A program made the position numbers and the translations under genes. Source: Papillibacter cinnamivorans DSM 12816 (lineage in GTDB: Bacteria > Bacillota > Clostridia > Oscillospirales > Oscillospiraceae). Taken from it: DNA of 64,000 nt. The DNA is taken from NCBI RefSeq assembly GCF_900176335.1, contig NZ_FWXW01000001.1:1-64000 (forward strand). Reading direction: 5' to 3'. The notes under the pieces are model-generated. The model made no database searches and was not told the origin of the DNA. It saw only the letters and a program-made list of their open reading frames with translations. Shown here one piece after another: positions 3,959 through 63,015 of this stretch. The stretch's first letter is position 1; every line of letters begins with the position of its first letter.

Positions 3959-5071
3959 TTGGACTTCATGGATGTCTATACGCTCTACACCCTTTCCCAT
4001 ATCGCGGCGCTGACGGCCTGCGTGATTCTATCGGCCCTGATAAATGCTTTTTTAGCAGTGAGGGTCAGGAAGGACGCGCTGCTGGCCGTCTATCTTGCCG
4101 TACAGGCGCTCCTTCTTCTTTGGATTGTGGGCAAAATCCTGGAGCTGGTGGCGCCCGTATTGTCCGTGGCGCAGATCTGCGCGCAGGCGCAGTGGATTGT
4201 GAGACTTCTTCTGCTTCCGGTCCTGGCGCTGTTTTTTGCCTTCCTGCGCAGGAAAAACAAAGACGGCAAATTCACAGCGCTCTCCGCCGCGGTTTTCCTG
4301 GCTGATGCCGTGCTTACGCTTCTGCCGTTTTTTCCTGTCTCGTTTTGGGTTTCGGATCTGTCGCCCGAGCTTGCCTTTGCGGTTATTTCCACTTTCGCCT
4401 ATTGGGGGAGAAGGGATATCTTTACCGGGCTTTCCGATCTGTCCATAGACCTGTTTGCCGACCGCATCGAAGACGCCGTGATATTATTCGACAGCTCCGA
4501 CAGATTCATGGACAGCAATAAAAACGCCCTGAAGCTCTTTCCTTTCCTGGGGAAGAGGTCCTCCCTGCGGGAACTTTACGGGTATCTTGCCGGGCACTCC
4601 GGGCCCAACACCTCGCTTCCGACCCTGTTCCTGCCGGAATTTGAGCCTTTCGATCTGGCTCTGGAAAGCGGCTCCGGCCTTCGGTATTTCCGCGTCAGCG
4701 CCGCCCGGGCGGGGAACGAAACCCGCCCCTCCACCGTCATGACCTTCTCGGATGTCACCGAGAGGACGAAGCTTCTGCGGGACCTGGAGGGAAAAAACCG
4801 GGCTCTGAAGGAAAAGAACGAAGAATTGAAGCGGTATATCGATGCGACCTCCCGCCTGGAAAACGAGCAGGAGAAATACCGCGCCGCTATGGAGATTCAG
4901 CAGCGTATCGGGCAGAGCATCGCGGAGCTTTTAATCGGCCTGGAGGCGATGGAAACCGCGGCCGTACGCGGGGAGGACCCGGCTCTCGGCGAAAGGCTGG
5001 ATAGGATGATCGAAAGCTGCAGGATGGTAATGTCCGAGATCCGCAAGTCGGTGAGTGACCTCACAGACTGA
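3959..5071 (+). CDS. Degenerate sensor histidine kinase (no phospho-acceptor His, no ATPase domain)
   Basis: A 370-residue protein. TTG 3959 is chosen from the ribosome site AAAAAGGTGG; ATG 3968 is the alternative. The order is five or six membrane segments (about residues 8-160), a PAS-like segment (about 170-270, DAVILFDSSDRFMDSN), a coiled coil (about 275-305) and a HisKA_3-like helix pair to the end. The N-terminal part aligns by eye with the kinase encoded at 5754-7469 (LLxxYLxVQxxLLLWxxxKI, LFFAF). At the H-box the active paralog reads AREVHDILGHS, whereas this protein reads AMEIQQRIGQS with Gln314 in place of His; no HATPase domain follows. It cannot autophosphorylate by the normal route. 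A role as sensor partner or dimerisation modulator of the intact kinase is inference. A response regulator gene follows 27 bases later. Confidence 0.75.
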   Translation: MDFMDVYTLYTLSHIAALTACVILSALINAFLAVRVRKDALLAVYLAVQALLLLWIVGKILELVAPVLSVAQICAQAQWIVRLLLLPVLALFFAFLRRKNKDGKFTALSAAVFLADAVLTLLPFFPVSFWVSDLSPELAFAVISTFAYWGRRDIFTGLSDLSIDLFADRIEDAVILFDSSDRFMDSNKNALKLFPFLGKRSSLRELYGYLAGHSGPNTSLPTLFLPEFEPFDLALESGSGLRYFRVSAARAGNETRPSTVMTFSDVTERTKLLRDLEGKNRALKEKNEELKRYIDATSRLENEQEKYRAAMEIQQRIGQSIAELLIGLEAMETAAVRGEDPALGERLDRMIESCRMVMSEIRKSVSDLTD

Positions 5072-51324: not shown

Positions 51325-51495
51325 AACCGCACCTCCCGTGTATTTCTATTAAAAAAACAATACGTTCCCGTCTGAATTCTAATTTACGGACGGAGCTTTC
51401 ATTTCAAAGTTGCCGCCCGGAAGAAACGGAAGCGGCGTGAACCGAAGCGTCTTCTTTTCTCGGTTCCTCCCGGTTTTGTTTGCTTCAGCGGACAT

Positions 51496-51522
51496 TAAGT
51501 ATTTCGTGATTTTTTCCGATAT
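51496..51522 (+). promoter_or_regulatory. Sigma-D (sigma-28) type flagellar promoter
   Basis: TAAG (51496-51499) and TCCGATAT (51515-51522) are separated by 15 bases, each one base from the consensus TAAA and GCCGATAT. It sits ~75 bases before the fliK-like start, on the correct strand. Confidence 0.7.
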
Positions 51523-51596
51523 ATTAACTGGAATCTGAAATTACTGTGACGCACCGGTGTTTGGCCGCCCCGGCCGATAGGTGCGCGGAGGCTGCC

Positions 51597-53195
51597 ATGG
51601 AGATGGATTACGGCGTTTTCCGTGCCGTTCCCCGCCCGGACGGGCTGCATATCGCTTCTCTTGCAAAAGAATCCGGGGAAACCGGCGCGATTCTTCCCCG
51701 GGGAGGCACCTTGGAGGCCACCGTCCTATTCGCCTCCCGGACAAACGCCAATGTTCTTCTGCAAAACGGCGCACTCGTAAGGGCAAGGCTGGACGACGGC
51801 GTTGTCCTTCGCGAAGGGGACACTGTTTTACTTACGGTGCTTCATAACGACGGGGAAAGCATCCTGCTGGAGGTATCCTCGCCGGAGAAGGAAATTCCAA
51901 TAGCATTTGCCGCGCTCGGTGTTTCTCTGCCCGTAACTGCGCCGGAGGAAGATATGAATATGCTTCTAAACGCTCTGTCGGAGGATTCGCTGAGCCCCGT
52001 CGCGGCTCTCCTGGAACAGGCGGAAACCGTCCGCTCTCGATATCCGTTTCTTTCTTTGCCCCCCGCCGCCTTCTCCGCCGCAAACGAAATTCCGCTGAGT
52101 CCGGAATCCGCCCGGATTCTGGATGCTTTGAGCCGTTCGGATTATAAGGTTGGCGCTTCGCTGCTCCGCCTGATCGGCCTGATGCGCCAGTCTGTTGAGG
52201 ATGCTCCCGGCGGTTTTGCTTTAGCCGAAAAAGCATCCTCGGAGCAACCGGAGCTTTCTGTAGAACCCGCGGTGCCGCGGTCTTCCTCCGCGGAAACGCC
52301 GGTGCCCCTGGAAGGGAAAGAAGGTTTTTCCCGGTTTCCGGGACCTGTTTCCGATAAAGACGGCGGGACGGATGCACCCGGGGACCTTTTAACTGCTTTA
52401 AAACAGGCGCTTATGGATTTTGAACGGTCCGACGGCGGCAGTCCCGCCCCGGCGGGTCCGGAAAAGGCTTCTGTAATTCCGGCTTCCGCCGCAAAGATAC
52501 TCTCCGGAGAAGATAGTAGAGCCGGCTCTGGGCGGTCTGACGGGGAAGCGCATCTGTTTCTGTCCCCGCCGGAGGGCGGTCTTCGGGGAGACGGCGGAAG
52601 GTCTCCCGTCCGGGCCGGGGAAGAGCTGTTTTTTGCCCGCGCGGAGGTTCCGGAGGCTTTGAAAAGAGCGGGCGAGGAACTTTCGGGGCGTCTTCTGCGG
52701 ATGATCTCCCAGGAAGAGATAAAAGTTCCGGGAAACGGGGAATTTTTCCGGGAAGCCGCCGGATTGCTGGAAGCGCAGTCGCTTTTTCGTTCCGTACGGC
52801 TGTTTACTTATCTGCAGATACCCATTATGATAAATGCGTACCGCGCCACCGCCGAGCTGTACGTTTTTCGGAAACGCAAGGGCCTGAAAAAGGAAAACCC
52901 GAAGGAAACCTCTCTGCTTTTAGTGCTGGACACGCAGCGGCTGGGCCGCGTGGAGGTTCTCGTCCGCGTGCGGGAAAGCGGCATTTCCTTCCGCTTCACT
53001 CTCCGCGATACCGCGGCGGCGCAGGCTATGAAAGAACGCACGGAGCGATTGTACCGGCTGGTTTCTCCCCTGGGATTCAAATATTCCGGGGCGGTCTTTC
53101 TCTCGGATGCGAAGCCCGTCACCCCGGTAAACGCCATACGGGAGCTGGCGGATACCGGGAATGGATGGCACGGAAAAATAAGTATCCGTGCATGA
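51597..53195 (+). CDS. FliK-like flagellar hook-length control protein
   Basis: A 532-residue protein. ATG 51597 follows GGAGG; upstream frame to 51546 is unlikely to be translated. The long middle is Pro/Ser/Ala/Glu-rich and likely disordered, as in FliK rulers. The C-terminal ~110 residues look like the Flg_hook domain: LLVLDTQRLGRVEVLVRVRE, SGISFRFTLRD, then a helix and YSGAVFLSD. It would be secreted through the flagellar export gate and switch its specificity. It leads the flagellar operon rather than being in its usual place after fliJ. Confidence 0.72.
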   Translation: MEMDYGVFRAVPRPDGLHIASLAKESGETGAILPRGGTLEATVLFASRTNANVLLQNGALVRARLDDGVVLREGDTVLLTVLHNDGESILLEVSSPEKEIPIAFAALGVSLPVTAPEEDMNMLLNALSEDSLSPVAALLEQAETVRSRYPFLSLPPAAFSAANEIPLSPESARILDALSRSDYKVGASLLRLIGLMRQSVEDAPGGFALAEKASSEQPELSVEPAVPRSSSAETPVPLEGKEGFSRFPGPVSDKDGGTDAPGDLLTALKQALMDFERSDGGSPAPAGPEKASVIPASAAKILSGEDSRAGSGRSDGEAHLFLSPPEGGLRGDGGRSPVRAGEELFFARAEVPEALKRAGEELSGRLLRMISQEEIKVPGNGEFFREAAGLLEAQSLFRSVRLFTYLQIPIMINAYRATAELYVFRKRKGLKKENPKETSLLLVLDTQRLGRVEVLVRVRESGISFRFTLRDTAAAQAMKERTERLYRLVSPLGFKYSGAVFLSDAKPVTPVNAIRELADTGNGWHGKISIRA

Positions 53196-53216
53196 CGGAA
53201 GAGGGAAGTGGAAAAA

Positions 53217-53378
53217 ATGAACGAAAAAGAGACCTCCCCGTCTGCTTCGCCCTTTTCGCCAGGCGAGCGGGAAAATAAACCGGATCTTCCTTTGGAGCTG
53301 TATGAAATCGCCTCCTGCGTGATGGAATTTGTCGCTGAAATCGACAGGGATTTCGAGAAAGAAAAGGAGACTCAATGA
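53217..53378 (+). CDS. Small 53-residue protein coupled to the flagellar hydrolase gene
   Basis: The frame MNEKETSPSASPFSPG ... ends in a helix with ELYEIASCVMEFVAEIDRDF and EKEKETQ. It begins 22 bases after the fliK-like stop, with GAGGGAAGTGG upstream, and its stop overlaps the next ATG (ATGA). The last codons also form that gene's ribosome site. The sequence is Ser/Pro-rich then helical and amphipathic. I do not recognise a family; a chaperone-like or regulatory role is inference from size and coupling. Confidence 0.6.
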   Translation: MNEKETSPSASPFSPGERENKPDLPLELYEIASCVMEFVAEIDRDFEKEKETQ

Positions 53379-54385
53379 TGGACGGAATCAATCAGGGAGG
53401 AATCGGAGCGTCGTCTGAAAGCTCCGGCCTGGAGGCGCAGAGTTCTTCCCGTTCGGAAAATGAAAACTCTTTGACGGAGGATAAAAACTTTGCGCTGCTC
53501 CTTTCGGCTCTCATTCAGGAGAAGGCGGCCTCTCAGCTTTCCTCCGCGCTGTCGTCGGACAACGCGGATTCCGGCGTTTTCCCCTCTCTCCAGGGTTCGG
53601 GTATTTCGGAAAGCGATTTTACCGCGTTTCTCACCGCCATGGAAAACGGCACGCTGGACCGCAGCGAGCTGGCTCTTATGCTTTTATCCGGCATGACGGG
53701 AGCCTCCTTCGGCTCCGGTTATTCCTCCGCTTCCGGATTATCCTCGCTTTCCGGCCTTTCCGTCTCCTCCGCGGGTGCTTCTGCGAAATCCCCGGTTTCT
53801 TCCGGCTCGGCGGTATTGCCGGCTAGTTCGTGGATGGCGGCGGTTCCCTCGGTGACGGGAGATGAGAGCTGCCGCAGCCCGGAGCTTTTAAACGCCGTTC
53901 TCTCCCAGTTTCAGGTGGAGACCGCCGAGCGCTACCGGCCCCATAAGAACGGAAGCGATACCTACTGCAATATTTACGTCTGGGATGTGACGGGCGCCAT
54001 GGGCGCCGAAATCCCCCACTATGTGGACCCGGAAACCGGAGCGCCCCGGGAGTATCCCGACGTGAAAGGCGCCTCGGAGCTCTCCGCCAACGGGATCAGC
54101 TCCTGGCTTACCCAATACGGAAGCCGGTACGGATGGACGGAGGTGGACGCAAAAACGGCCCAGGAGTACGCAAACCGCGGCTGCCCCGCGGTTACCGCCT
54201 GGAAGAATGAAAGCGGCGGCTCGGGCCATGTCCAGGTGGTCTGCCCCTCCCGGGACCAAAGCTATGCTCCCGAACTGGGAGTCACCGTCTCCCAGGCCGG
54301 GAGCAGCAATCTCTCCTATGCCTATATTTCCTCCGTTTACGGGGCCGGCCGGCTCTCCCAGGTGCGTTATTTCGTTCACGAATGA
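53375..54385 (+). CDS. Flagellar-operon protein with Cys/His hydrolase-like domain
   Basis: A 336-residue protein; start within the preceding ATGA. No signal peptide. The first ~165 residues are Ser/Ala/Gly-rich and presumably disordered, as in exported flagellar proteins. The C-terminal ~160 residues form a compact domain with YRPHKNGSDTYCNIYVWDVT (Cys), WLTQYGSRYGWTEVDAKTAQ and GGSGHVQVVCPS (His), an order like CHAP/NlpC-type thiol hydrolases. It may replace FlgJ-type muramidase in opening peptidoglycan for the rod (inference). Activity is not proven by sequence. Confidence 0.65.
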   Translation: MMDGINQGGIGASSESSGLEAQSSSRSENENSLTEDKNFALLLSALIQEKAASQLSSALSSDNADSGVFPSLQGSGISESDFTAFLTAMENGTLDRSELALMLLSGMTGASFGSGYSSASGLSSLSGLSVSSAGASAKSPVSSGSAVLPASSWMAAVPSVTGDESCRSPELLNAVLSQFQVETAERYRPHKNGSDTYCNIYVWDVTGAMGAEIPHYVDPETGAPREYPDVKGASELSANGISSWLTQYGSRYGWTEVDAKTAQEYANRGCPAVTAWKNESGGSGHVQVVCPSRDQSYAPELGVTVSQAGSSNLSYAYISSVYGAGRLSQVRYFVHE

Positions 54386-54464
54386 TAAATTCTTCTTTAG
54401 AAAAGGAGAATTCTTTCGATAGTATAGACAGGTGAACCCTTGGCGGGAAGGAGGCGAAATTGTC

Positions 54465-56360
54465 ATGTCGGATATCAGCTCGGTCTACAGCAGCACCTCC
54501 CGCATCACCGGTATCTATTCCAATTTGGACACCGACGCCATTGTGAAGGATTTGATGGAGGTCCAGCAGACCAAGGTGGACGCCAAGGATCAGGAAAAGA
54601 CTTCTCTGGAGTGGTACAACGATGCCCTGGGAAGCGTTTCGGATCTGGTGAAGGAGTTTAAAAGCACTTATCTTACCTCCTCGGGAAGCGGCAGCATGCT
54701 TTCTTCCACCGCCTATAAGAGCTTTCAGGTCGACTGCGGCGATGATTCCGCCGTTTCCGTCTCGGCGGGAACCGGCGCGACGACCGGAAGCTATACGGTA
54801 AACAGCGTGACGCAGCTTGCGAAAAACGCTTCCGTTTCCAGCTCCGGCAGAATATCCTCGGACGGAAAAAGTATTTCCGAATACAACACCACCGCGCTGA
54901 GCGGACTTAAATTTGCGGCAGGTCTGGAGTTCGACGCAGGAGGAAACATATCCTTTGAAATCAACGGCGCCGCCTTCACCTTTTCTTCCGACACCACGCT
55001 TCAGGCAATGATCAACACGGTAAACGCGGACGAGACCGCCTGCGTCACCATGAAATACAGCCGCCTCACCGATGCTTTCACGATTGCGGCGGATGACGGC
55101 GGAGCTTCCAGCTCCGTCACAATTAAAAACCTTTCCGGCAACGCATTCGGAGAAAACGGAGCCTTCGGGATCGCCGAAGGGACCACCGGGGATGCGTACG
55201 CCGCCTCGGTTGCCAGCTCCGGCGGCATTCTGGAAAACGGGGAGGGCATCACACGGTACTCCACCCTTGGAGAGCTGGACGCCGCGGTTTCCAACACCCT
55301 GCTGGACACCTCCGGGGAGCTGTCTTTTACCATCAACGGAAAATCCTTCACCTTCGGCTCCGACACGTCCATTCTGGACATGACCTTTGCCGTGAATTCC
55401 GGCGGAGCCGGCGTCAAAATGAGCTACGACGGCACGGCGGACACATTTTCCATCGTTTCCTCCGACTCCGGCGCCGATGCTTCCATCACGATCGAAAATA
55501 ATTCCGGAAACGCATTCGGGCCCGGCGGCGTGTTCGGCATTGACACGGGCACCGTTTTCGGCACGAGTTACGGAGAGGTCGGATCGGACTGCGTCTGCAC
55601 CATCGAGGGCGTCGAGGTGACGCGGGACAGCAATTGCTTTACCATCGACGGCCTTACCTATACCCTGAAAAAAGCCACGGACGAGCAGACGGATTTCACC
55701 GTCAGCCGGGACTTCACGGCCACGGTGGAAGCCGTCAAGACCTTTGTCGACGCTTACAATACCCTGACGGACAAATTGAACTCTCTCCTGGATGAGAAGG
55801 ACTATTCCGCCGATTACAAGCCCCTGACTTCCGAGCAGGAGGACGAAATGAGTGAAAATGAGATTGCATCCTGGAACGATAAGGCGAAATCCGGACTGCT
55901 GCGGAACAATAAGGATCTGGAGGGTTTTCTCAGGAATCTGAAGAATTCCTTTTTCTCCTCCCTGGCCGGGAGCGGAAAGACCATGGCGTCCCTCGGGATT
56001 ACGACCGCAAGCTATTATTCCGACGACGCCGGCAAAATCGTTCTGGACGAGGATGCCCTCACCGCCGCCCTGGAGAAAAACCCCGATCAGGCGGTGTCCA
56101 TGTTCACGGCCTCCGATAAAGACTCCAGGGGCTTTATTTATAAAATATCCGACGCGGTAAACAATTACCTGAATGTCGCAGGAGACGACGAGGACGCTAC
56201 CTCGGACAAAATCAGCGGTCTTGAGACCAAAATCAGCGACATGGAGGACGACCTGGACGACCTGGCGGACAGATACTATGAGAAATTTTCCGTTATGGAG
56301 CAGTCCCTCAGCCGTCTCAATTCCATTTCGAGCATGCTGTCTTCTCTCTTGTCCTCCTGA
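54465..56360 (+). CDS. fliD: Flagellar filament cap protein FliD (HAP2)
   Basis: A 631-residue protein. ATG 54465 follows AAGGAGG. FliD_N at the start (RITGIYSNLDTDAIVKDLME, QQTKVDAKDQEKTSLEW) and FliD_C in the second half (YNTLTDKLNSLLDEKDYSAD ... GLLRNNKDLEGFLRNL ... ENPDQAV-like EKNPDQAVSMFT) with C-terminal coiled coil (RYYEKFSVMEQSLSRL). In between are two repeated blocks (about 170-260 and 285-375) each containing FTFSSDT / FTFGSDT and a NNSGNAFG-type turn, resembling flagellin-hook motifs. It is exported and caps the growing filament. Confidence 0.92.
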   Translation: MSDISSVYSSTSRITGIYSNLDTDAIVKDLMEVQQTKVDAKDQEKTSLEWYNDALGSVSDLVKEFKSTYLTSSGSGSMLSSTAYKSFQVDCGDDSAVSVSAGTGATTGSYTVNSVTQLAKNASVSSSGRISSDGKSISEYNTTALSGLKFAAGLEFDAGGNISFEINGAAFTFSSDTTLQAMINTVNADETACVTMKYSRLTDAFTIAADDGGASSSVTIKNLSGNAFGENGAFGIAEGTTGDAYAASVASSGGILENGEGITRYSTLGELDAAVSNTLLDTSGELSFTINGKSFTFGSDTSILDMTFAVNSGGAGVKMSYDGTADTFSIVSSDSGADASITIENNSGNAFGPGGVFGIDTGTVFGTSYGEVGSDCVCTIEGVEVTRDSNCFTIDGLTYTLKKATDEQTDFTVSRDFTATVEAVKTFVDAYNTLTDKLNSLLDEKDYSADYKPLTSEQEDEMSENEIASWNDKAKSGLLRNNKDLEGFLRNLKNSFFSSLAGSGKTMASLGITTASYYSDDAGKIVLDEDALTAALEKNPDQAVSMFTASDKDSRGFIYKISDAVNNYLNVAGDDEDATSDKISGLETKISDMEDDLDDLADRYYEKFSVMEQSLSRLNSISSMLSSLLSS

Positions 56361-56460
56361 CAAAGTCACTGAATGATTCGGCGAGCCGCCCGCCTGGATT
56401 CGCGGCAGCCGCTTGGCTCCACCCTCCTCCAAGAGACGGGAGCGCGGCAATGGGAGTGTT

Positions 56461-56868
56461 ATGCAGTACTTCGGTTCCGACCCCCGCAAAGAATATTTGA
56501 GGCAGGAGGTTATGACGGCAAGTCCCGCCGAGCTCGTGACGATGCTGTTTGAATCCGCCATAAAAAACGTCCGTCTCGCCACAATCGCTTACGAGGATAA
56601 AAAGGACATCGGCGCTGTAAACAGTCATCTGCAGAAGGCGCAGAGGATAATCAGCGAGCTCATCGGCTGCCTGGACATGAGCCTCTCCATTTCCCCCCAG
56701 CTGCTGAAAATTTACGAGTTTATTCTGAAGGAACTTCGTATCGCAAACGCCCGCAAGGACATGGACCGGCTCGAGCCCGTGATCGGGATGCTCTATTCCA
56801 TGCGGGATACCTGGCAGGAGGTTGCCCGGCGTCAGAGGAACGGTATGGCGTCGAAAAGTCTGCAATGA
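56461..56868 (+). CDS. fliS: Flagellin chaperone FliS
   Basis: A 135-residue helical protein; ATG 56461 is chosen because upstream codons lie in a GC-rich spacer. Signatures: YLRQEVMTASPAELVTMLFE, AVNSHLQKAQRIISELIGCL, and YEFILKELRIANARKD. It binds flagellin C-termini in the cytosol to prevent early assembly. Overlap of 4 bases with the next gene indicates coupling. Confidence 0.92.
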   Translation: MQYFGSDPRKEYLRQEVMTASPAELVTMLFESAIKNVRLATIAYEDKKDIGAVNSHLQKAQRIISELIGCLDMSLSISPQLLKIYEFILKELRIANARKDMDRLEPVIGMLYSMRDTWQEVARRQRNGMASKSLQ

Positions 56869-57284
56869 TCGGCGTGGAGAATGAGGCGGTCCGCTTCGAG
56901 CGGCTGCGACGGAAAAAAGACGGCCTTGCCGGCCTGCTTTCCGTTATGCGGGAATTGGAGGATGCTGTGGATTCATACGATATGCCGCGCTTTCTGGAAG
57001 ATCTGCAACGATGCGAAAAAGCGGTGAAACGCCTGAAGGATTCAGACGGTGTTCACATGGAGCCGGAAATGCCTCCGACTCTCAGGGAAGCCTCTCTCGT
57101 CAAAGAAATCGAGGGGCTCGTGAAGCAGGCGGAGCTGCTCAATGCAAGAACGGTGCATCAGGTGGAAGAAAACATGAAGTTTTGCCTTTCAGAAACGAAG
57201 CGTCTTCGCCGCAGCGCAAAGGGAATGTATTATCTGAAAAGCGGCTTCGGTTTCCCGATGGTGGAATTTGATAAATCCGTCTGA
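56865..57284 (+). CDS. Helical protein after fliS, FliT/FlgN-like candidate
   Basis: A 139-residue protein, almost all charged helix (ERLRRKKDGLAGLLSVMREL, EASLVKEIEGLVKQAELLNA). The C-terminus reads GMYYLKSGFGFPMVEFDKSV, similar in style to FlgN-type chaperones that end in a Tyr/Phe-rich tail. Position between fliS and yaaR fits an export chaperone of FliT/FlgN kind, but identity is too low to assign by eye. Confidence 0.6.
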   Translation: MIGVENEAVRFERLRRKKDGLAGLLSVMRELEDAVDSYDMPRFLEDLQRCEKAVKRLKDSDGVHMEPEMPPTLREASLVKEIEGLVKQAELLNARTVHQVEENMKFCLSETKRLRRSAKGMYYLKSGFGFPMVEFDKSV

Positions 57285-57308
57285 CGCGGGAGCGGGGGAG
57301 ATGGAAGC

Positions 57309-57761
57309 TTGAAGGTAAAATACGCGGAAAGAACGGACCGCGGCATGGAAGCGGGGCCGACCGTCGTCCGGAAACGGGAAGCCTCCTTCCGGGAACCGTC
57401 GTTTGATCACCAGTACAGGGAAGAGGGCCGTCGGCAGCTGGAGGAGCATCTGGAAGACCTGAAAAACCGGCTGGAACAGCAGGGAAATATTCTCGCCCGG
57501 AAAGCGGACATTGGGGAGCTTTCCCGTTACCGTACCCTGATTTCCGAGATCCTCTGTGAAGTGGTGGGAAACGCGTACGCCTTTCAGAAGGAAAACGCCT
57601 TTGATAAAAGGGGAAGGCACTTTGTATACGCGACCGTACGAAAGATTGACGAAAAGCTGGAGGAACTTGGCCGGGAGATTCTGCGGGAAAACCGCGATGA
57701 GATCGAAATCCTTGCCAAAATAGACGATATCCGGGGCCTTTTACTGGATATTCTTTCGTAA
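57309..57761 (+). CDS. YaaR family (DUF327) protein
   Basis: A 150-residue protein with a TTG start after GGGGGAG. The DUF327 region runs from ~35 to the end: DLKNRLEQQGNILARKADIG, ELSRYRTLISEILCEVVGNA, and the closing DDIRGLLLDILS typical of YaaR. It is all helical and cytosolic. YaaR proteins are common in Firmicutes and have no defined function; here it lies within a flagellar operon. Confidence 0.82.
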   Translation: MKVKYAERTDRGMEAGPTVVRKREASFREPSFDHQYREEGRRQLEEHLEDLKNRLEQQGNILARKADIGELSRYRTLISEILCEVVGNAYAFQKENAFDKRGRHFVYATVRKIDEKLEELGREILRENRDEIEILAKIDDIRGLLLDILS

Positions 57762-57881
57762 AACGCGGTGGTATGAAACCATCGGATGGAACGGCTTTTC
57801 GGAAAAATCCGATTTTCTTCTGGACTGTGGGAATAAAACGTGCTAGATTGAAGGAAACCGTGAAGGAAGGGAGCTTTGTCC

Positions 57882-58289
57882 ATGTGGGGAAATTTATTTC
57901 AGACCGCGGATCTGCTGGAAAAGGGAATCGGCGCGGACTGGCTGCGAAACGAAGTGATCTCCAACAACATCTCCAACGCGGACACGCCGGGTTTCAAGGT
58001 TTCCGAAGTGGAGTTTGAGGACGTCCTGGCCTCCGCCATTTCCACCGGCGGCCTGGAGTTGAAAACCACCCGTGACGGGCATCTGAGCGGGGGCTCCGCC
58101 GGTCTTTCCTCTGCGGAACCTGTGATCACCACCTCCGAAACCACCGCTTACCGCACGGACGATAACAACGTGGACATTGAGGCACAGATGGTGGATCTTG
58201 CCCAGAACAGCCTGCATTACTATACTCTCGTGAGCAAGCTGAACTCGGAATTTCGCAGGCTGAACCTGGCGATTACCGGAGGCAATTGA
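57882..58289 (+). CDS. flgB: Flagellar basal-body rod protein FlgB
   Basis: A 135-residue protein. ATG 57882 lies ~9 bases after AAGGAAGGGA. Rod-protein motif NEVISNNISNADTPGFKVSE near residue 25 is the export/assembly signature; the C-terminal helix ends SKLNSEFRRLNLAITGGN. It forms the proximal rod with FlgC and FliE. It precedes the riboswitch region, so it belongs to the upstream transcript. Confidence 0.92.
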   Translation: MWGNLFQTADLLEKGIGADWLRNEVISNNISNADTPGFKVSEVEFEDVLASAISTGGLELKTTRDGHLSGGSAGLSSAEPVITTSETTAYRTDDNNVDIEAQMVDLAQNSLHYYTLVSKLNSEFRRLNLAITGGN

Positions 58290-58352
58290 AAAATGATTCG
58301 CCGAATTTTGTAAGTTTTTTGTTTAAAATGTAGAAATTTATCATAAAACATC

Positions 58353-58381
58353 TTGACGCCGGAAAAATAAACCAGTATTAT
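58353..58381 (+). promoter_or_regulatory. Sigma-A promoter ahead of the c-di-GMP riboswitch
   Basis: TTGACG (58353-58358) and TATTAT (58376-58381) are spaced exactly 17 bases. The predicted start (~58388) lies just before the riboswitch fold, so flgC and the following genes have their own regulated transcript. The 365-base spacer 58290-58654 is fully explained by this promoter, the riboswitch and the terminator. Confidence 0.8.
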
Positions 58382-58395
58382 GATGGTTGTAACAA

Positions 58396-58480
58396 TTGAT
58401 AAAGGCAAACCTGTTGAAAAGCAGGGACGCAAAATCAAGGGTCTAAAGCCGCAAGGCTATGACAGCCGGTTGCCAAAATG
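58396..58480 (+). ncRNA. Cyclic di-GMP-I (GEMM) riboswitch
   Basis: The core matches the GEMM-I consensus in order: AAAGGCAAACC (P1 and J1/2), CCTGTTGAAAAGCAGG as P2 with its GAAA tetraloop, GGGACGCAAA (ligand-binding G and A region), GGGTCTAA, AGCCGCAAGGCT as P3 hairpin, ATGACAGCC and GGTTGCC closing P1. It should bind c-di-GMP and control the downstream terminator. It lies between flgB and flgC; placement ahead of flagellar genes is known in Clostridioides difficile, where it represses motility at high c-di-GMP. Confidence 0.92.
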
Positions 58481-58504
58481 TTATTCAAATAATCGTGTTC
58501 TAAA

Positions 58505-58543
58505 CGGAGCAAGGGGGGATTATCTCCTTTTGCCGGTTTTTTT
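58505..58543 (+). terminator. Probable riboswitch-controlled terminator
   Basis: GCAAGGGGGGA (58509-58519) pairs with TCCTTTTGC (58525-58533), partly through G-U pairs, and CCGGTTTTTTT follows (T-run 58537-58543). It lies ~25-60 bases beyond the riboswitch and 110 before flgC, where an expression platform is expected. Confidence 0.6.
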
Positions 58544-58654
58544 CACTATGCGATGAATTCATTTAGGTAACTAAATGGATTTTTTTTATCCCTTTTTTCG
58601 CTGATAAAAATAACCGTACGCTTCGGCGCAGTAAAAAATGAAGGAGGCAGTGTC

Positions 58655-59089
58655 ATGGGTTTTTTAAGTTCGCTGGATATCAGCGCTTCCGGGCTCACCG
58701 CCCAGCGTCTGCGCATGGATGTGATCTCGGAAAATATCGCGAATATTGATACCACCAGGACGGACTCGGGAGAGCCGTATCGCAGGAAGTATATCGTTCT
58801 CAGCGAAAAAAACAAACCCTTTTCCTCCTATCTGGAAAACGGGGAGGCTGGAACATCCGCCGGCGGAGTATATGTATCACGTGTGGGGGAAGACCAGTCC
58901 GATTTTACGCTGAAATACGATCCGAACAACGTGGACGCGGATGAAAACGGGTACGTGAAAATGCCCAACGTGGATCTGTCCACGGAAATGGTGGACATGA
59001 TGTCGGCTTACCGCTCCTACGAGGCAAACGTTACCGCTTTCAACGCATCGAAGGACATGGCGGTCAAAGCCCTGGAAATAGGGGAATAG
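58655..59089 (+). CDS. flgC: Flagellar basal-body rod protein FlgC
   Basis: A 144-residue protein; ATG follows AAGGAGG. FLSSLDISASGLTAQRLRMD and VISENIANIDTTRTDSGEPYRRK form the rod motif; MMSAYRSYEANVTAFNASKD and the C-terminal MAVKALEIGE are typical of FlgC. Expression is likely controlled by the c-di-GMP riboswitch just upstream. It heads a run of closely spaced flagellar genes. Confidence 0.93.
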   Translation: MGFLSSLDISASGLTAQRLRMDVISENIANIDTTRTDSGEPYRRKYIVLSEKNKPFSSYLENGEAGTSAGGVYVSRVGEDQSDFTLKYDPNNVDADENGYVKMPNVDLSTEMVDMMSAYRSYEANVTAFNASKDMAVKALEIGE

Positions 59090-59155: not shown

Positions 59156-59464
59156 ATGTTGTACGACATGGATATTCAGGCGCTCAATTCTGCCACCAGG
59201 TTCATGAATTCTTCCGGAAACCTCTCCGGAAAAAGCGCCGGCGACAGCAATTTCTCCGAATTTTTAAGCGACGCTTACGATTTGGCCAAGAGCACGGATC
59301 TGCAGGATAAAAGCTCCGCTCTTTCACTTCTCACCGGCAGTGAGGACGATATCGCCTCCGCCATGGTTGATTCCGAGAAGGCGGAGCTGGCTTTGAGCCT
59401 CACCATCGAGATTCGCAACAAAGTGATGGACGCTTATAAGGAAATTCTGAACATGCAGGTCTGA
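59156..59464 (+). CDS. fliE: Flagellar hook-basal body protein FliE
   Basis: A 102-residue protein, with a variable N-terminus and the family C-terminus: SAMVDSEKAELALSLTIEIR, NKVMDAYKEILNMQV. FliE links the MS ring to the rod. In most genomes fliF-fliG-fliH-fliI follow; here fliO follows after 46 bases. Confidence 0.9.
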   Translation: MLYDMDIQALNSATRFMNSSGNLSGKSAGDSNFSEFLSDAYDLAKSTDLQDKSSALSLLTGSEDDIASAMVDSEKAELALSLTIEIRNKVMDAYKEILNMQV

Positions 59465-59510
59465 TTTTTCGCAGGACTCTGTTTTTGCTGGTCTGACTGG
59501 GGGAGAAGAG

Positions 59511-59942
59511 ATGTTTTTGCAGACGTTGGGCGCTCTGTCTGTTGTGCTTCTGGTGATATTCGCCTCTTATTACGCCACCAGATATCTGGCCGGACGCGTA
59601 AACGGAGGATTCCGCGAAACACGGTATCTGAAGGTACTGGACCGTTTTTCCCTGTCGAAGGACAAGATGCTGGTCCTATGCGCCATGGGAGGGCGGGCCT
59701 ATCTCATCTGCGTCACCAATCAAGGGATGGAGCTCATCGATCAGAAAGATCTTGAGGAGCTGGAACCTTTGAAGGAAAAAACCGGCGCTCTTTCGGATTC
59801 CGTCTCCGGCGCCGGCGCCTTCATGAAGGAATACCTCATGTCTAGGTTTGTGAAAAAACAGAAAAACGGGGATTCCGGCGCGTCTTTTTCTGATTTCTGG
59901 GAAAAGGCCCGGCGTTCCGCCGACGGGAAAAATCCCGATTAG
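59511..59942 (+). CDS. fliO: Flagellar biosynthesis protein FliO
   Basis: A 143-residue protein with one N-terminal membrane helix (LGALSVVLLVIFASYYATRYL), then a FliO domain: RETRYLKVLDRFSLSKDKML, VLCAMGGRAYLICVTNQGME, and an extended charged tail. FliO helps assemble the FliP ring. It precedes fliP, as usual. Confidence 0.85.
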   Translation: MFLQTLGALSVVLLVIFASYYATRYLAGRVNGGFRETRYLKVLDRFSLSKDKMLVLCAMGGRAYLICVTNQGMELIDQKDLEELEPLKEKTGALSDSVSGAGAFMKEYLMSRFVKKQKNGDSGASFSDFWEKARRSADGKNPD

Positions 59943-59999
59943 GGGAGTAGGTCGGCGGCAATTACAATTCGGGACTTGACCGGAAAGCGGGGATAGAGA

Positions 60000-60758
60000 T
60001 TGAAGCACAGCGGAAAATCCGTAAAAATATACCGATACGCCGCCATGTTCGCTCTGGTTTTTCTCGTCTGCTCCATGGCGGTTCCTCCGGCTCTGGGAGC
60101 GCCCGATGACGTTGTGAAATCTGTTTTCGGAGACAATACCCAGACTCTCGATATTGTGATTCTTCTGACGGTTCTGGCCCTGATTCCCACTCTGCTCGTC
60201 TGCCTCACCGCCTTTACGAGGATCGTGATCGTCCTGGGATTCATCAAAAGCGCCATCGGGATGCAGAACGTTCCTCCCACCCAGGTGATCATCAGCCTGG
60301 CTCTGATTCTGGATTTTTTCGTCATGAGCCCTGTGATTTCACAGATCAATCAGACGGCTTACGTGCCCTATTCCCAGGGCCAGATCACCCTGGAGGAATT
60401 CGGAAAACAGGCCATGGTGCCGGTCCGGGAGTTCATGCTCAAGCAGACCTATAAGTCGGATCTGGACTTTTTTGCCAAGCTGGACAAGCTGGAAAATGTG
60501 GAAGACGTTTCTCAGATCCCCGATCACGACGTCATTCCGGCCTTTATGACCAGCGAATTGAAGCGGGCCTTTCAGATCGGCTTTTTTCTCTATATCCCAT
60601 TTATCGTCATCGACATGGTGGTGGCCAGCACCCTTATGGCCATGGGTATGATGATGCTGCCTCCCGCCATGATATCCTTGCCCTTCAAGGTCCTTCTGTT
60701 TGTGCTGGTGGACGGCTGGACCCTTACCCTCGGGACCCTGATTCAAAGTTTCGGATAG
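60000..60758 (+). CDS. fliP: Flagellar export gate protein FliP
   Basis: A 252-residue protein with a TTG start preceded by GGGGAT. A signal-like N-terminus is followed by four membrane helices, with FTRIVIVLGFIKSAIGMQNV, PPTQVIISLALILDFFVMSP and VASTLMAMGMMMLPPAMISL. It forms the core of the export gate. Length and motifs are complete. Confidence 0.94.
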   Translation: MKHSGKSVKIYRYAAMFALVFLVCSMAVPPALGAPDDVVKSVFGDNTQTLDIVILLTVLALIPTLLVCLTAFTRIVIVLGFIKSAIGMQNVPPTQVIISLALILDFFVMSPVISQINQTAYVPYSQGQITLEEFGKQAMVPVREFMLKQTYKSDLDFFAKLDKLENVEDVSQIPDHDVIPAFMTSELKRAFQIGFFLYIPFIVIDMVVASTLMAMGMMMLPPAMISLPFKVLLFVLVDGWTLTLGTLIQSFG

Positions 60759-60810
60759 AGCAAATTGATAATAATCAGCAGCGGGCGGCGCAGTTCGCGG
60801 GGAGGTTAAT

Positions 60811-61083
60811 ATGATTAGTCAGGCCGAAGTGATATCCATTCTGCAGGACGCGATCGGAACGACCCTCAAGGCGGCGGCTCCCATGCTTCTGGTGGCCCTC
60901 GTCATCGGTCTTATCGTATCCGTTTTCCAGGCCACCACCCAGATAAACGAGCAGACCCTTTCCTTCGTCCCCAAAATCATAGGCATCCTTCTTGCCATCC
61001 TTATTTTCGGCGGCTGGATCCTCGGCTCCATGACGGACTTCACCGTCCGCCTCTACGAGTCAATCCTTCTCTATCTCAGCTGA
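60811..61083 (+). CDS. fliQ: Flagellar export gate protein FliQ
   Basis: A 90-residue protein with two membrane helices: the first in APMLLVALVIGLIVSVFQAT, then QINEQTLSFVPKIIGI, then ILIFGGWILGSMTDF. It matches the family along its length. It belongs to the FliP5Q4R1 gate, in the inner membrane. Confidence 0.93.
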   Translation: MISQAEVISILQDAIGTTLKAAAPMLLVALVIGLIVSVFQATTQINEQTLSFVPKIIGILLAILIFGGWILGSMTDFTVRLYESILLYLS

Positions 61084-61129
61084 CGGAGCTTACCGTCCGC
61101 GAAAATTCAACGGCAGAAGAAGGAGGCCC

Positions 61130-61927
61130 GTGATGTCGCAGATTCTGACTCAGGCCCTCGGGCATTGGGATTATACGCTCCTTCTTTTCCTCCGGGTGAG
61201 CTCTATTCTCCTGCCTTCTCCGATTTTCGGGAGAAAGCTGGTTCCCTCGCTCATCAAGACCTCCTTCTGCATCTTTTTGACCTATCTGTTTCTTCTGGCC
61301 TTTCCGTTTCCGGAGCAGGGCCTTGTATACGAAACGACGCTTGGTTATATCCTCCTGTGCGTCAGGGAACTGGCCTTCGGATTTGTTCTGAGCTTTGTCG
61401 TCACCATGTTTTTTGACCTGGTGTATATCGCAGGACATTTGATTGACACCCAGGTGGGCTTTGGCATCGTGAGCGTTTACGATATTCAGAACAACTCTCA
61501 GGTCCCCATGACCGGAAATCTCCTGAACGTCGTGTACCTGATCGTGTTTTTTTCCGTGAACGGGCATTTGAAATGGATCTCCATCCTGTATTCCACCTTT
61601 GCGAAAGTACCCGTCGGACACGTGCAGATTTCCGCGAACCTCGCCTCTGCCGCTGTGGAGGCCTTCTCGCTGTCCTTTCTGCTTGCGGTTATGATGGCTA
61701 TGCCCATCATCGCCTCCGGCCTCATCCTGGAGCTTGCCATGGGGGTCATGATCCGCTCCGTTCCTCAGATGAACATGTTTGTTATCGGCATTCCGGTGAA
61801 GATTCTCGTCTGCCTGCTGGTGCTGATCCTCACCGTTCCCGCCATGGTCGCATTCAGCAATACGGTTTTTACGGACATGTTCCAGTCGGTGGAACGGCTG
61901 TTTGACACGTTTGGAGTGCTGCAATGA
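61130..61927 (+). CDS. fliR: Flagellar export gate protein FliR
   Basis: A 265-residue protein with about six membrane helices. Signatures: LLFLRVSSILLPSPIFGRKL, AGHLIDTQVGFGIVSVYDIQ, and the C-terminal NMFVIGIPVKILVCLLVLIL. Its stop overlaps flhB by 4 bases. It completes the gate with FliP and FliQ. Confidence 0.93.
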   Translation: MMSQILTQALGHWDYTLLLFLRVSSILLPSPIFGRKLVPSLIKTSFCIFLTYLFLLAFPFPEQGLVYETTLGYILLCVRELAFGFVLSFVVTMFFDLVYIAGHLIDTQVGFGIVSVYDIQNNSQVPMTGNLLNVVYLIVFFSVNGHLKWISILYSTFAKVPVGHVQISANLASAAVEAFSLSFLLAVMMAMPIIASGLILELAMGVMIRSVPQMNMFVIGIPVKILVCLLVLILTVPAMVAFSNTVFTDMFQSVERLFDTFGVLQ

Positions 61928-63015
61928 GCGGGCAGGGCAGCGGTGAAAAGACTGAAAAAGCCACAAAGAAAAAGAAGGAAAAAGCCAGGGAAGAGGGCAA
62001 GGTTGTCCGCAGCAACGAGCTTAGCATTGCCGCTTCCGTGATCACCCTCTTTGCCGTAATCCTCGTCGGCTGGAAGCATTTCATGCAAAACGCTTCTTCC
62101 CTGATGGTCAAATATCTCTCCGAAAACTATCTGGTTTCAGCGTCGAAAAACCTGGACGCCGCCGCCGTGAGAAACGTGTTTCTGAGCGCCGCGCTGGACG
62201 GTCTGCGCATCGTCTGGCCGATTTTTGTCCTTGCGATGCTTGTGGGCGCGTTGGTTCAAATTCTTCAGACGGGTTTTCTCGTGACGGGAAAAACCTTGAT
62301 GCCCCAGCTCAACCGTTTGAATCCCATCGAGGGTTTCAAGCGGATCTTTTCCCTTCGCTCCGTGGTGGAGATGCTCAAAGCCGCCGCAAAAATCGCTTTT
62401 CTCTGCGTCGTCGTATACGGAGCGTTTCAAAGCCTCATGCCCGAGTTTCCCTCTCTCATGAGCATGGAGGTGTCCCAGTCCTTTCCGAAGCTCATGCAGA
62501 CCGCCCTGACCCTTGCGCTTAAAATGGGTGCGGTTCTCGCCGTCGTCGCCGCCGCGGATTATCTTTATCAGTGGTGGCGCAACGAAAAGGACCTCATGAT
62601 GACAAAGCAGGAGGTCAAAGAGGAATTCAAGCAGCTGGAGGGAGACCCCAAGATCAAGGGGCAGATCCGCGCCCGTCAGAGACAGATCAGCAGAAGGCGC
62701 ATGATGCAGCGCATGAAGGAAGCCGACGTCGTTATTACCAACCCCACGCACTTTGCCGTCGCCGTCCGTTATAAAGAGAAAGAGGACAAAGCGCCCCTGG
62801 TCCTTGCCAAAGGGCAGGATCTCGTGGCGCTGCGGATCCGGGAAAAGGCCGCCGAATACGGCATCGAAGTGGTGGAAAACCGTCCCGTCGCCCAGGCGCT
62901 TTATAAAAACTGCGAAATCGGGGAGGAGATCCCCAAAGACCTGTACCGCGCGGTGGCGGAGATTCTGGTCTATGTCTACCAGATGAAGAACAAGGCAAGG
63001 GGGGGAAGAGCGTGA
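61924..63015 (+). CDS. flhB: Flagellar export switch protein FlhB
   Basis: A 363-residue protein: a charged N-terminus (GEKTEKATKKKKEKAREEGK), four membrane helices and a cytosolic autocleavage domain with NPTH in VVITNPTHFAVAVRYKE. It switches substrate class from rod/hook to filament after cleavage between Asn and Pro, with FliK. It overlaps the flhA start by 4 bases. Confidence 0.95.
   Translation: MSGQGSGEKTEKATKKKKEKAREEGKVVRSNELSIAASVITLFAVILVGWKHFMQNASSLMVKYLSENYLVSASKNLDAAAVRNVFLSAALDGLRIVWPIFVLAMLVGALVQILQTGFLVTGKTLMPQLNRLNPIEGFKRIFSLRSVVEMLKAAAKIAFLCVVVYGAFQSLMPEFPSLMSMEVSQSFPKLMQTALTLALKMGAVLAVVAAADYLYQWWRNEKDLMMTKQEVKEEFKQLEGDPKIKGQIRARQRQISRRRMMQRMKEADVVITNPTHFAVAVRYKEKEDKAPLVLAKGQDLVALRIREKAAEYGIEVVENRPVAQALYKNCEIGEEIPKDLYRAVAEILVYVYQMKNKARGGRA

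Follow-up and report, generated by a model that had tools for sequence, protein, structure and literature searches.

A probable c-di-GMP-I transcriptional OFF switch between flgB and flgC in Papillibacter cinnamivorans, with a twin before fliF

The leader of flgC in Papillibacter cinnamivorans DSM 12816 contains an aptamer of the c-di-GMP-I (GEMM-I) class and is probably a transcriptional OFF switch built on the design of Cd1 of Clostridioides difficile, the predicted layout being of the Cd1 type in that the terminator lies wholly past the aptamer and the antiterminator takes the 3′ strand of the aptamer. The riboswitch class itself is known, and c-di-GMP switches before flgB are already known as well; what is new is the position between flgB and flgC, together with an arrangement in which a twin of the switch stands before fliF. 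The principal features are collected in Table 1, numbered as positions of the window, i.e. the whole stretch of 64,000 nucleotides that was analysed (positions 1 to 64,000 of the forward strand of contig NZ_FWXW01000001.1).

Table 1 Features of the flgC leader, its neighbouring genes and its twin (window positions unless a contig is named; d, terminator score).
Feature	Position	Strand	Basis or remark
Sigma-D-like site TAAG-N15-TCCGATAT	51496–51522	+	score reached by 1/200 region shuffles
fliK-like (PF02120 barely over cut-off), fliD, fliS and DUF327 genes before flgB	51546–57761	+	Pfam
flgB, upstream of switch	57876–58289	+	Pfam PF00460, 30.1 bits
Sigma-A-like promoter TTGACG-N17-TATTAT	58353–58381	+	10/12 matches; position fits
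P1 helix of aptamer, GUAACA (58389–58394) with UGUUAU (58479–58484)	58389–58484	+	folds of growing transcripts
Predicted antiterminator, 5′ arm: GGUUGCC of aptamer 3′ end and strand after it, including P1 3′ strand	58468–58487	+	minimum-energy fold
Hairpin T1 and U-run	58502–58539	+	d 6.9 in best form; −47.9 for compact stem alone
Predicted antiterminator, 3′ arm: T2 5′ arm, loop and start of T2 3′ arm	58554–58572	+	minimum-energy fold
Predicted terminator T2, hairpin (58555–58582) and U-run	58555–58590	+	d 15.4 in best form
Shine-Dalgarno-like AAGGAGG of flgC	58641–58647	+	sequence
flgC	58655–59089	+	Pfam PF06429, PF00460; FlgC by comparison with named records
fliE, fliO, fliP, fliQ, fliR, flhB	59156–63015	+	Pfam, ORFs
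Twin GEMM-I switch before fliF	contig C9 80565–80651 (L148:16565–16651)		fliF at 80898

Covariance-model search, which the original prediction had proposed as a check, gave a match to RF01051 (c-di-GMP-I) on the forward strand at 58394–58477 with 80.7 bits (E 2.8e-14, gathering score 35), aligned at full length (model positions 1–87 of 87); with cmscan applied to the whole window this was the sole RNA-family match over its gathering score, while none of 14 control genomes contained a match to the family. In the alignment G58404 (the base at model position 11) occupies the place of G20 of Vc2 and A58431 that of A47, following the equivalences described in PMC11218506, and a GAAA tetraloop is present at 58416–58419. 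By its covariance score, length and contact bases the element is a member of the c-di-GMP-I class, and ligand binding is predicted.

That a promoter, a GEMM-I core and a T-run hairpin lie between flgB and flgC, as originally claimed, is thus confirmed, the hairpin being that at 58509–58533. Over 3 kb and both strands, three sites with at least 9 of 12 sigma-A matches were observed as against 2.1 in shuffles, so that the promoter taken alone is weak evidence; its placement is supported by the P1 strand GUAACA, which starts after a 7-nt spacer past the −10 box. Judging from the −10 box and the position of P1, transcription likely starts at 58389. No other promoter with at least 9 of 12 matches was found between flgB and flgC in a scan that included the region 58290–58400, nor was any credible terminator found in the spacer from flgB to the switch (best d score −82.9), which is why flgB transcripts may read into the switch. 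Of the gene arrangement first proposed, it holds that flgC, fliE and the export gate lie behind the switch and that flgB, upstream, has no control in cis, but with no credible terminator in the spacer, flgB and flgC are not necessarily confined to separate transcripts. The ORF that starts at 63012 and runs past the end of the window we take to be flhA.

The check for dual terminators found two predicted hairpins in the leader, T1 and T2 (d scores are of the d'Aubenton-Carafa type). T1 has a strong stem with a run of 7 T, while T2 and its U-run lie past 58543, where the element had been thought to end, so that it is longer than was claimed. The stem pattern of T2, with one mismatch allowed, occurs at two sites in the 2.89-Mb genome, the flgC leader and the fliF leader, and in both it follows a GEMM-I aptamer. 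Folded at minimum energy, the flgC leader has a 17-bp helix joining 58468–58487 to 58554–58572, which as modelled is incompatible with the folded aptamer and with T2 alike; the duplex is worth −16.6 kcal/mol, and 5 of 2000 shuffles of the partner strand equal it. When growing transcripts were folded as free RNA, 17 antiterminator pairs were present by 58572 and zero T2 pairs at every length tested, while with the aptamer and P1 forced the T2 pairs rose from 5 at 58575 to 12 at 58584. Holding the aptamer folded in the full-length leader carries a price of 5.6 to 7.8 kcal/mol, ligand energy not counted. The analysis turned up no further genome of the genus in which covariation of T2 and antiterminator could be followed.

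In the mechanism proposed, RNA polymerase would begin near 58389 from the sigma-A promoter, or would enter by read-through from flgB. At low c-di-GMP, GGUUGCC and the strand following it would pair with the 5′ arm and loop of T2, and formation of this antiterminator would block T2 and allow flgC, fliE, fliOPQR and flhB to be transcribed. With c-di-GMP bound, the aptamer would retain its 3′ strand, T2 would fold before its U-run and transcription would end. T1 is expected to fold in both states; it is probably a spacer hairpin like the HP1 hairpin of Cd1, drawing the antiterminator arms together, and possibly adds a weak ligand-independent stop. At high c-di-GMP the flgC switch and its fliF twin would jointly shut off the MS ring, the export gate, FliE and FlgC. 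The OFF logic is favoured because Cd1 has been measured with the same logic and with HP1 between aptamer and terminator. It should be borne in mind that T1 comes first and scores 6.9, so that if most transcripts were to end there, control at T2 would matter little.

As originally predicted, the terminator of the switch was T1, and a reading in which regulation acts on T1 (ending near 58543) and T2 is incidental might draw on its strong stem, its T-run and its score, as well as on a precedent for two active hairpins in the Bc1 switch of Bacillus thuringiensis (PMC11218506). It is nonetheless unlikely: the arms of T1 pair with the aptamer 3′ strand at shuffle level (1913 of 2000 shuffles were as good for the 5′ arm, and 369 of 2000 for the 3′ arm), T1 folds both with the aptamer forced and in the free RNA, and the hairpin in its place in the fliF leader has no U-run. 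A pairing of the T1 3′ arm with the aptamer 5′ strand, spotted by eye, was also rejected, 671 of 2000 shuffles being its equal. Because its pairing is no better than chance, T1 would not be coupled to the aptamer, and the terminator that is coupled in these models is T2. Quite unlikely, too, is a decayed or ligand-blind switch, in which most transcripts stop at T1 or the two hairpins now serve mainly to terminate the flgB unit. The flgB–flgC interval contains no terminator besides these two, and Bc1 as described in PMC11218506 provides a precedent for a switch that binds and yet is unresponsive; against this, aptamer and antiterminator are both intact, and the promoter at 58353 is the only one of at least 9/12 found in the interval, so that transcription of flgC must cross both hairpins.

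The reverse direction, an ON switch whose ligand favours read-through, is very improbable, since T1 and T2 both begin past the aptamer, so that binding removes no terminator strand, since the strong competing helix opposes the aptamer, and since C. difficile switches of class I have been described as OFF switches (PMC6200980). In its favour may be set a short helix (58489–58494 with 58519–58524) that is possible before T1 closes, and the presence of leaders with an ON layout in the same genome. Among 24 GEMM-I leaders compared (9 from this genome and 15 from relatives), 13 have a terminator scoring over zero and 11 have none; 11 terminators lie wholly past the aptamer, and for all of them but T1 (10 of 11) the pairing with the 3′ strand of the aptamer exceeds the shuffle mean. 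The ON layout, in which the terminator starts within the aptamer, was seen in three of the 24, namely c12d and c15 of this genome and L107, which is the flgB leader of another genome and yet has the ON layout; this leader, like the 11 in which no terminator scores over zero, speaks against the OFF reading.

For the preferred reading, that of an OFF switch acting through T2, the twin before fliF has mixed implications. Its promoter (TTGACA-N17-TATACT) has 11 of 12 sigma-A matches and its leader carries the T2 motif, but its antiterminator pairing is weaker (272 of 2000 shuffles equal it) and in its fold antiterminator pairs and T2 can coexist, which counts against a Cd1-type reading. There are thus two blocks of basal-body genes, flgC-fliE-fliOPQR-flhB and the one that begins with fliF-fliG, and a switch stands before each. 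GEMM-I occurs nine times in this genome, and the selectivity base (the place of Vc2 G20) is G in the flgC switch and A in three of the nine copies: the fliF switch and, on contig C12, c12b and c12c. An A at this base accompanies cGAMP in Geobacter, as described in PMC6456294; cGAMP (GEMM-Ib) was considered as ligand of the flgC switch and rejected, the base there being G. Enzymes of the Hypr type are taken to have S at the place after the GHxxG motif, on the basis of S347 (PMC6456294). Nine GGDEF matches are present in this genome, and the GHxxG motif was found in eight of them, each time followed by the ordinary D, and was not found in the ninth. On this ground a cGAMP synthase of the Hypr type, and of that type only, was rejected, assuming S347 to occupy that place of the motif.

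The other GEMM-I copies of the genome include a group of five on contig C12 (L150:5542–9107), which occupy about 3.6 kb on both strands as two tandem pairs and a single copy; one tandem pair, whose selectivity bases are A and G, stands before a CAP-domain gene. Leaders with an ON layout, their terminator stem beginning within the aptamer, stand at L152:4060–4160 and L150:5735–5839, and the gene after the former presumably encodes a 961-aa repeat protein with an LPxTG-like end. From the layout of c12d and c15, a division of GEMM-I roles seems likely in which flagella are turned OFF and some surface proteins ON.

Among 80 named FlgC loci flgB is upstream in 77, with a gap of at most 60 nt in 75, and among 52 family stretches it is upstream in 49 and within 60 nt in 41; the three loci of each set with no recognised upstream flgB were excluded from the gap counts, and the gap of 148 at L046 is not real, there being Ns in flgB. 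The family stretches derive from 54 FlgC-positive genomes (G130 and G160 being left out), several of them stop at a contig end, and the counts are not independent because the locus sets overlap, L109 and L196 for instance being, judged by length and coordinates, the same contig. GEMM-I was found in the stretch of 11 of the 80 named loci, before flgB in all 11 (in L070 the flgB start of the longest ORF overlaps the match by 8 nt), and the present locus is the only one among those examined in which it lies between flgB and flgC. An order-level search gave a FlgC match in at least 75 and GEMM-I in at least 104 of 394 genomes; searches over 40 genomes used stricter filters, which weak matches may escape. 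Among the matches listed, the near neighbours G281 and G411 have the switch before flgB, while in G326 and G376 it lies between flgC and fliE, with the promoter TTGACA-N17-TATACT in both. Elsewhere, G255 has two GEMM-I copies before flgB, G003 has one between flgC and fliE (flgC and the switch being separated there by a flagellin-like gene of opposite orientation), and G007, in a longer stretch, has one before fliF. A survey of published work, mostly open-access and not exhaustive, found no c-di-GMP switch between flgB and flgC. An unusual flgB–flgC gap of 202 nt in a Sporobacter termitidis bin (L041, ~4800–4945) is filled by two copies of a palindromic repeat, with no Rfam match in the gap.

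As regards flgB itself, the gene ends a unit with the order fliK-like, 336-aa ORF, fliD, fliS, 139-aa ORF, DUF327, flgB, at the head of which, some 6.35 kb before flgB, lies the sigma-D-like site at 51496–51522; on sequence grounds this is the strongest candidate for a promoter of the unit. Immediately in front of flgB the top-scoring sigma-D-like site has 7.5, which 83 of 200 shuffles reach, and no sigma-A promoter of at least 9/12 was found at 51325–51560 or before flgB. Allowing three mismatches, the sigma-D pattern occurs 73 times in the window against 53 expected by chance, a count that is uninformative, and 18 times in L148 against 13. A stricter pattern gives 36 sites in the whole genome, against 26 for a reversed control, and seven of the 36 fall within 51000–104000 of contig C9, where 0.66 would be expected were they evenly spread (P 4e-6); that stretch was picked post hoc, and the count ignored strand and gene position, one of the seven lying within flhA on the other strand. 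A site of the same form as that at 51496 (TAAG-N15-CCCGATAT) is found at C9 96018–96044, 18 nt before an ORF that we take to be CheR-like, and a further sigma-D-like site (TAAA-N15-TACGATAA) at C9 80292–80318 on the reverse strand, about 230 nt before a flagellin-like gene that runs away from fliF.

The same order, fliD-fliS-(...)-flgB(-flgC), then switch, then early genes, is seen here and in G003, G326 and G376. In the last two, which belong to one genus, a sigma-D-like site stands right before the longest flgB ORF (TAAA-N15-TCCGATAA at 16 nt in G326 and TAAA-N15-GCCGATTA at 23 nt in G376; L194 ~2898–2924 and L195 ~1668–1694), its score being reached by 0 of 200 shuffles in either case, and G326 has in addition a terminator (d 27.5) between fliS and flgB. 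More widely, sigma-D sites scoring at least 9.5 within 150 nt before flgB were found at 4 of 142 flgB loci, as against 0 to 3 in 20 shuffled sets, the 142 including duplicates and two of the four sites being copies of one locus (G007, 118 nt away). FlgM was found in G326, G376 and the present genome. In C. difficile a late flagellar cluster lies near the early one (PMC7438776), and it would follow as a simple history that the boundary between early and late genes has shifted by one or two rod genes.

A bolder interpretation, that across the order proximal-rod genes have moved from the early, c-di-GMP-gated class to the late sigma-D class, with the switch marking the boundary and an AND gate as the outcome, is doubtful. 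If it were true, flgB (and in G003, G326 and G376 both flgB and flgC) would be made only under active sigma-D, and the MS ring, export gate and FliE only at low c-di-GMP, so that flagellation would need low c-di-GMP plus an already running sigma-D. In Bacillus, sigma-D is kept in check by FlgM until construction of the basal body is complete; if FlgM acts likewise here, sigma-D-dependent synthesis of a rod protein would set up positive feedback. It would be unusual for a rod gene to depend on sigma-D alone.

The original prediction also saw in the separation of flgB from flgC a checkpoint in rod assembly. This is not supported: fliE, fliPQR and flhB lie behind the flgC switch and fliF behind its twin, and because all of these are behind switches, assembly would stop before any FlgB step, so that leaving flgB outside the switch adds no checkpoint. 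In Salmonella, FliE on the FlhB-FliPQR core precedes FlgB (PMC9307174).

The wider interest of the arrangement is that, taking this locus and its relatives together, the switch is seen at four basal-body places (before flgB, between flgB and flgC, between flgC and fliE, and before fliF), and its position determines which of the rod genes are free of cis control by c-di-GMP. The flgC and fliF switches, differing as they do at the selectivity base, form a natural pair for comparing ligand and threshold, while the sigma-D-like promoters right before flgB in two relatives make the notion of a rod gene as a late gene testable.

The closest known system is Cd1 (Cdi-1-3), the OFF switch before flgB of C. 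difficile (PMC9262584, PMC6200980, PMC7438776), whose place before flgB had been rightly stated in the original prediction; here flgB lies 5′ of the switch, so that this arrangement is not the one found. In Cd1 the HP1 hairpin has been measured, together with an antiterminator in which the ligand-pairing C is engaged (PMC9262584). Common to Cd1 and the flgC switch are the aptamer class, a terminator past the aptamer, an in-between hairpin (T1 occupying the place of HP1), an antiterminator that draws on the 3′ strand of the aptamer along with the C that pairs with the ligand, and early flagellar genes downstream. The flgC switch differs in standing between flgB and flgC, in having a U-run behind its in-between hairpin, in its fliF twin and in being known by computation. 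The switches of G003, G326 and G376 share with it the genes on either side, fliD-fliS-flgB upstream and early basal-body genes downstream, but there the boundary lies one gene further on, and a sigma-D-like promoter of its own precedes flgB in G326 and G376.

Bc1, the dual-terminator c-di-GMP-I switch before mcpE of B. thuringiensis, resembles the flgC leader in having two terminator-like hairpins per platform, the second of which was judged the stronger in vivo (PMC11218506); it differs in preceding a chemoreceptor gene and, in the assays described there, in showing no response to c-di-GMP. The PD3 promoter of the fla/che operon of Bacillus subtilis, from which sigma-D reads into flgB with positive feedback, would in that respect resemble the proposed promoter of the flgB unit, but PD3 supplements a sigma-A promoter that is itself both necessary and sufficient, is by itself insufficient for motility, and belongs to an operon in which no riboswitch is described (PMC3874003).
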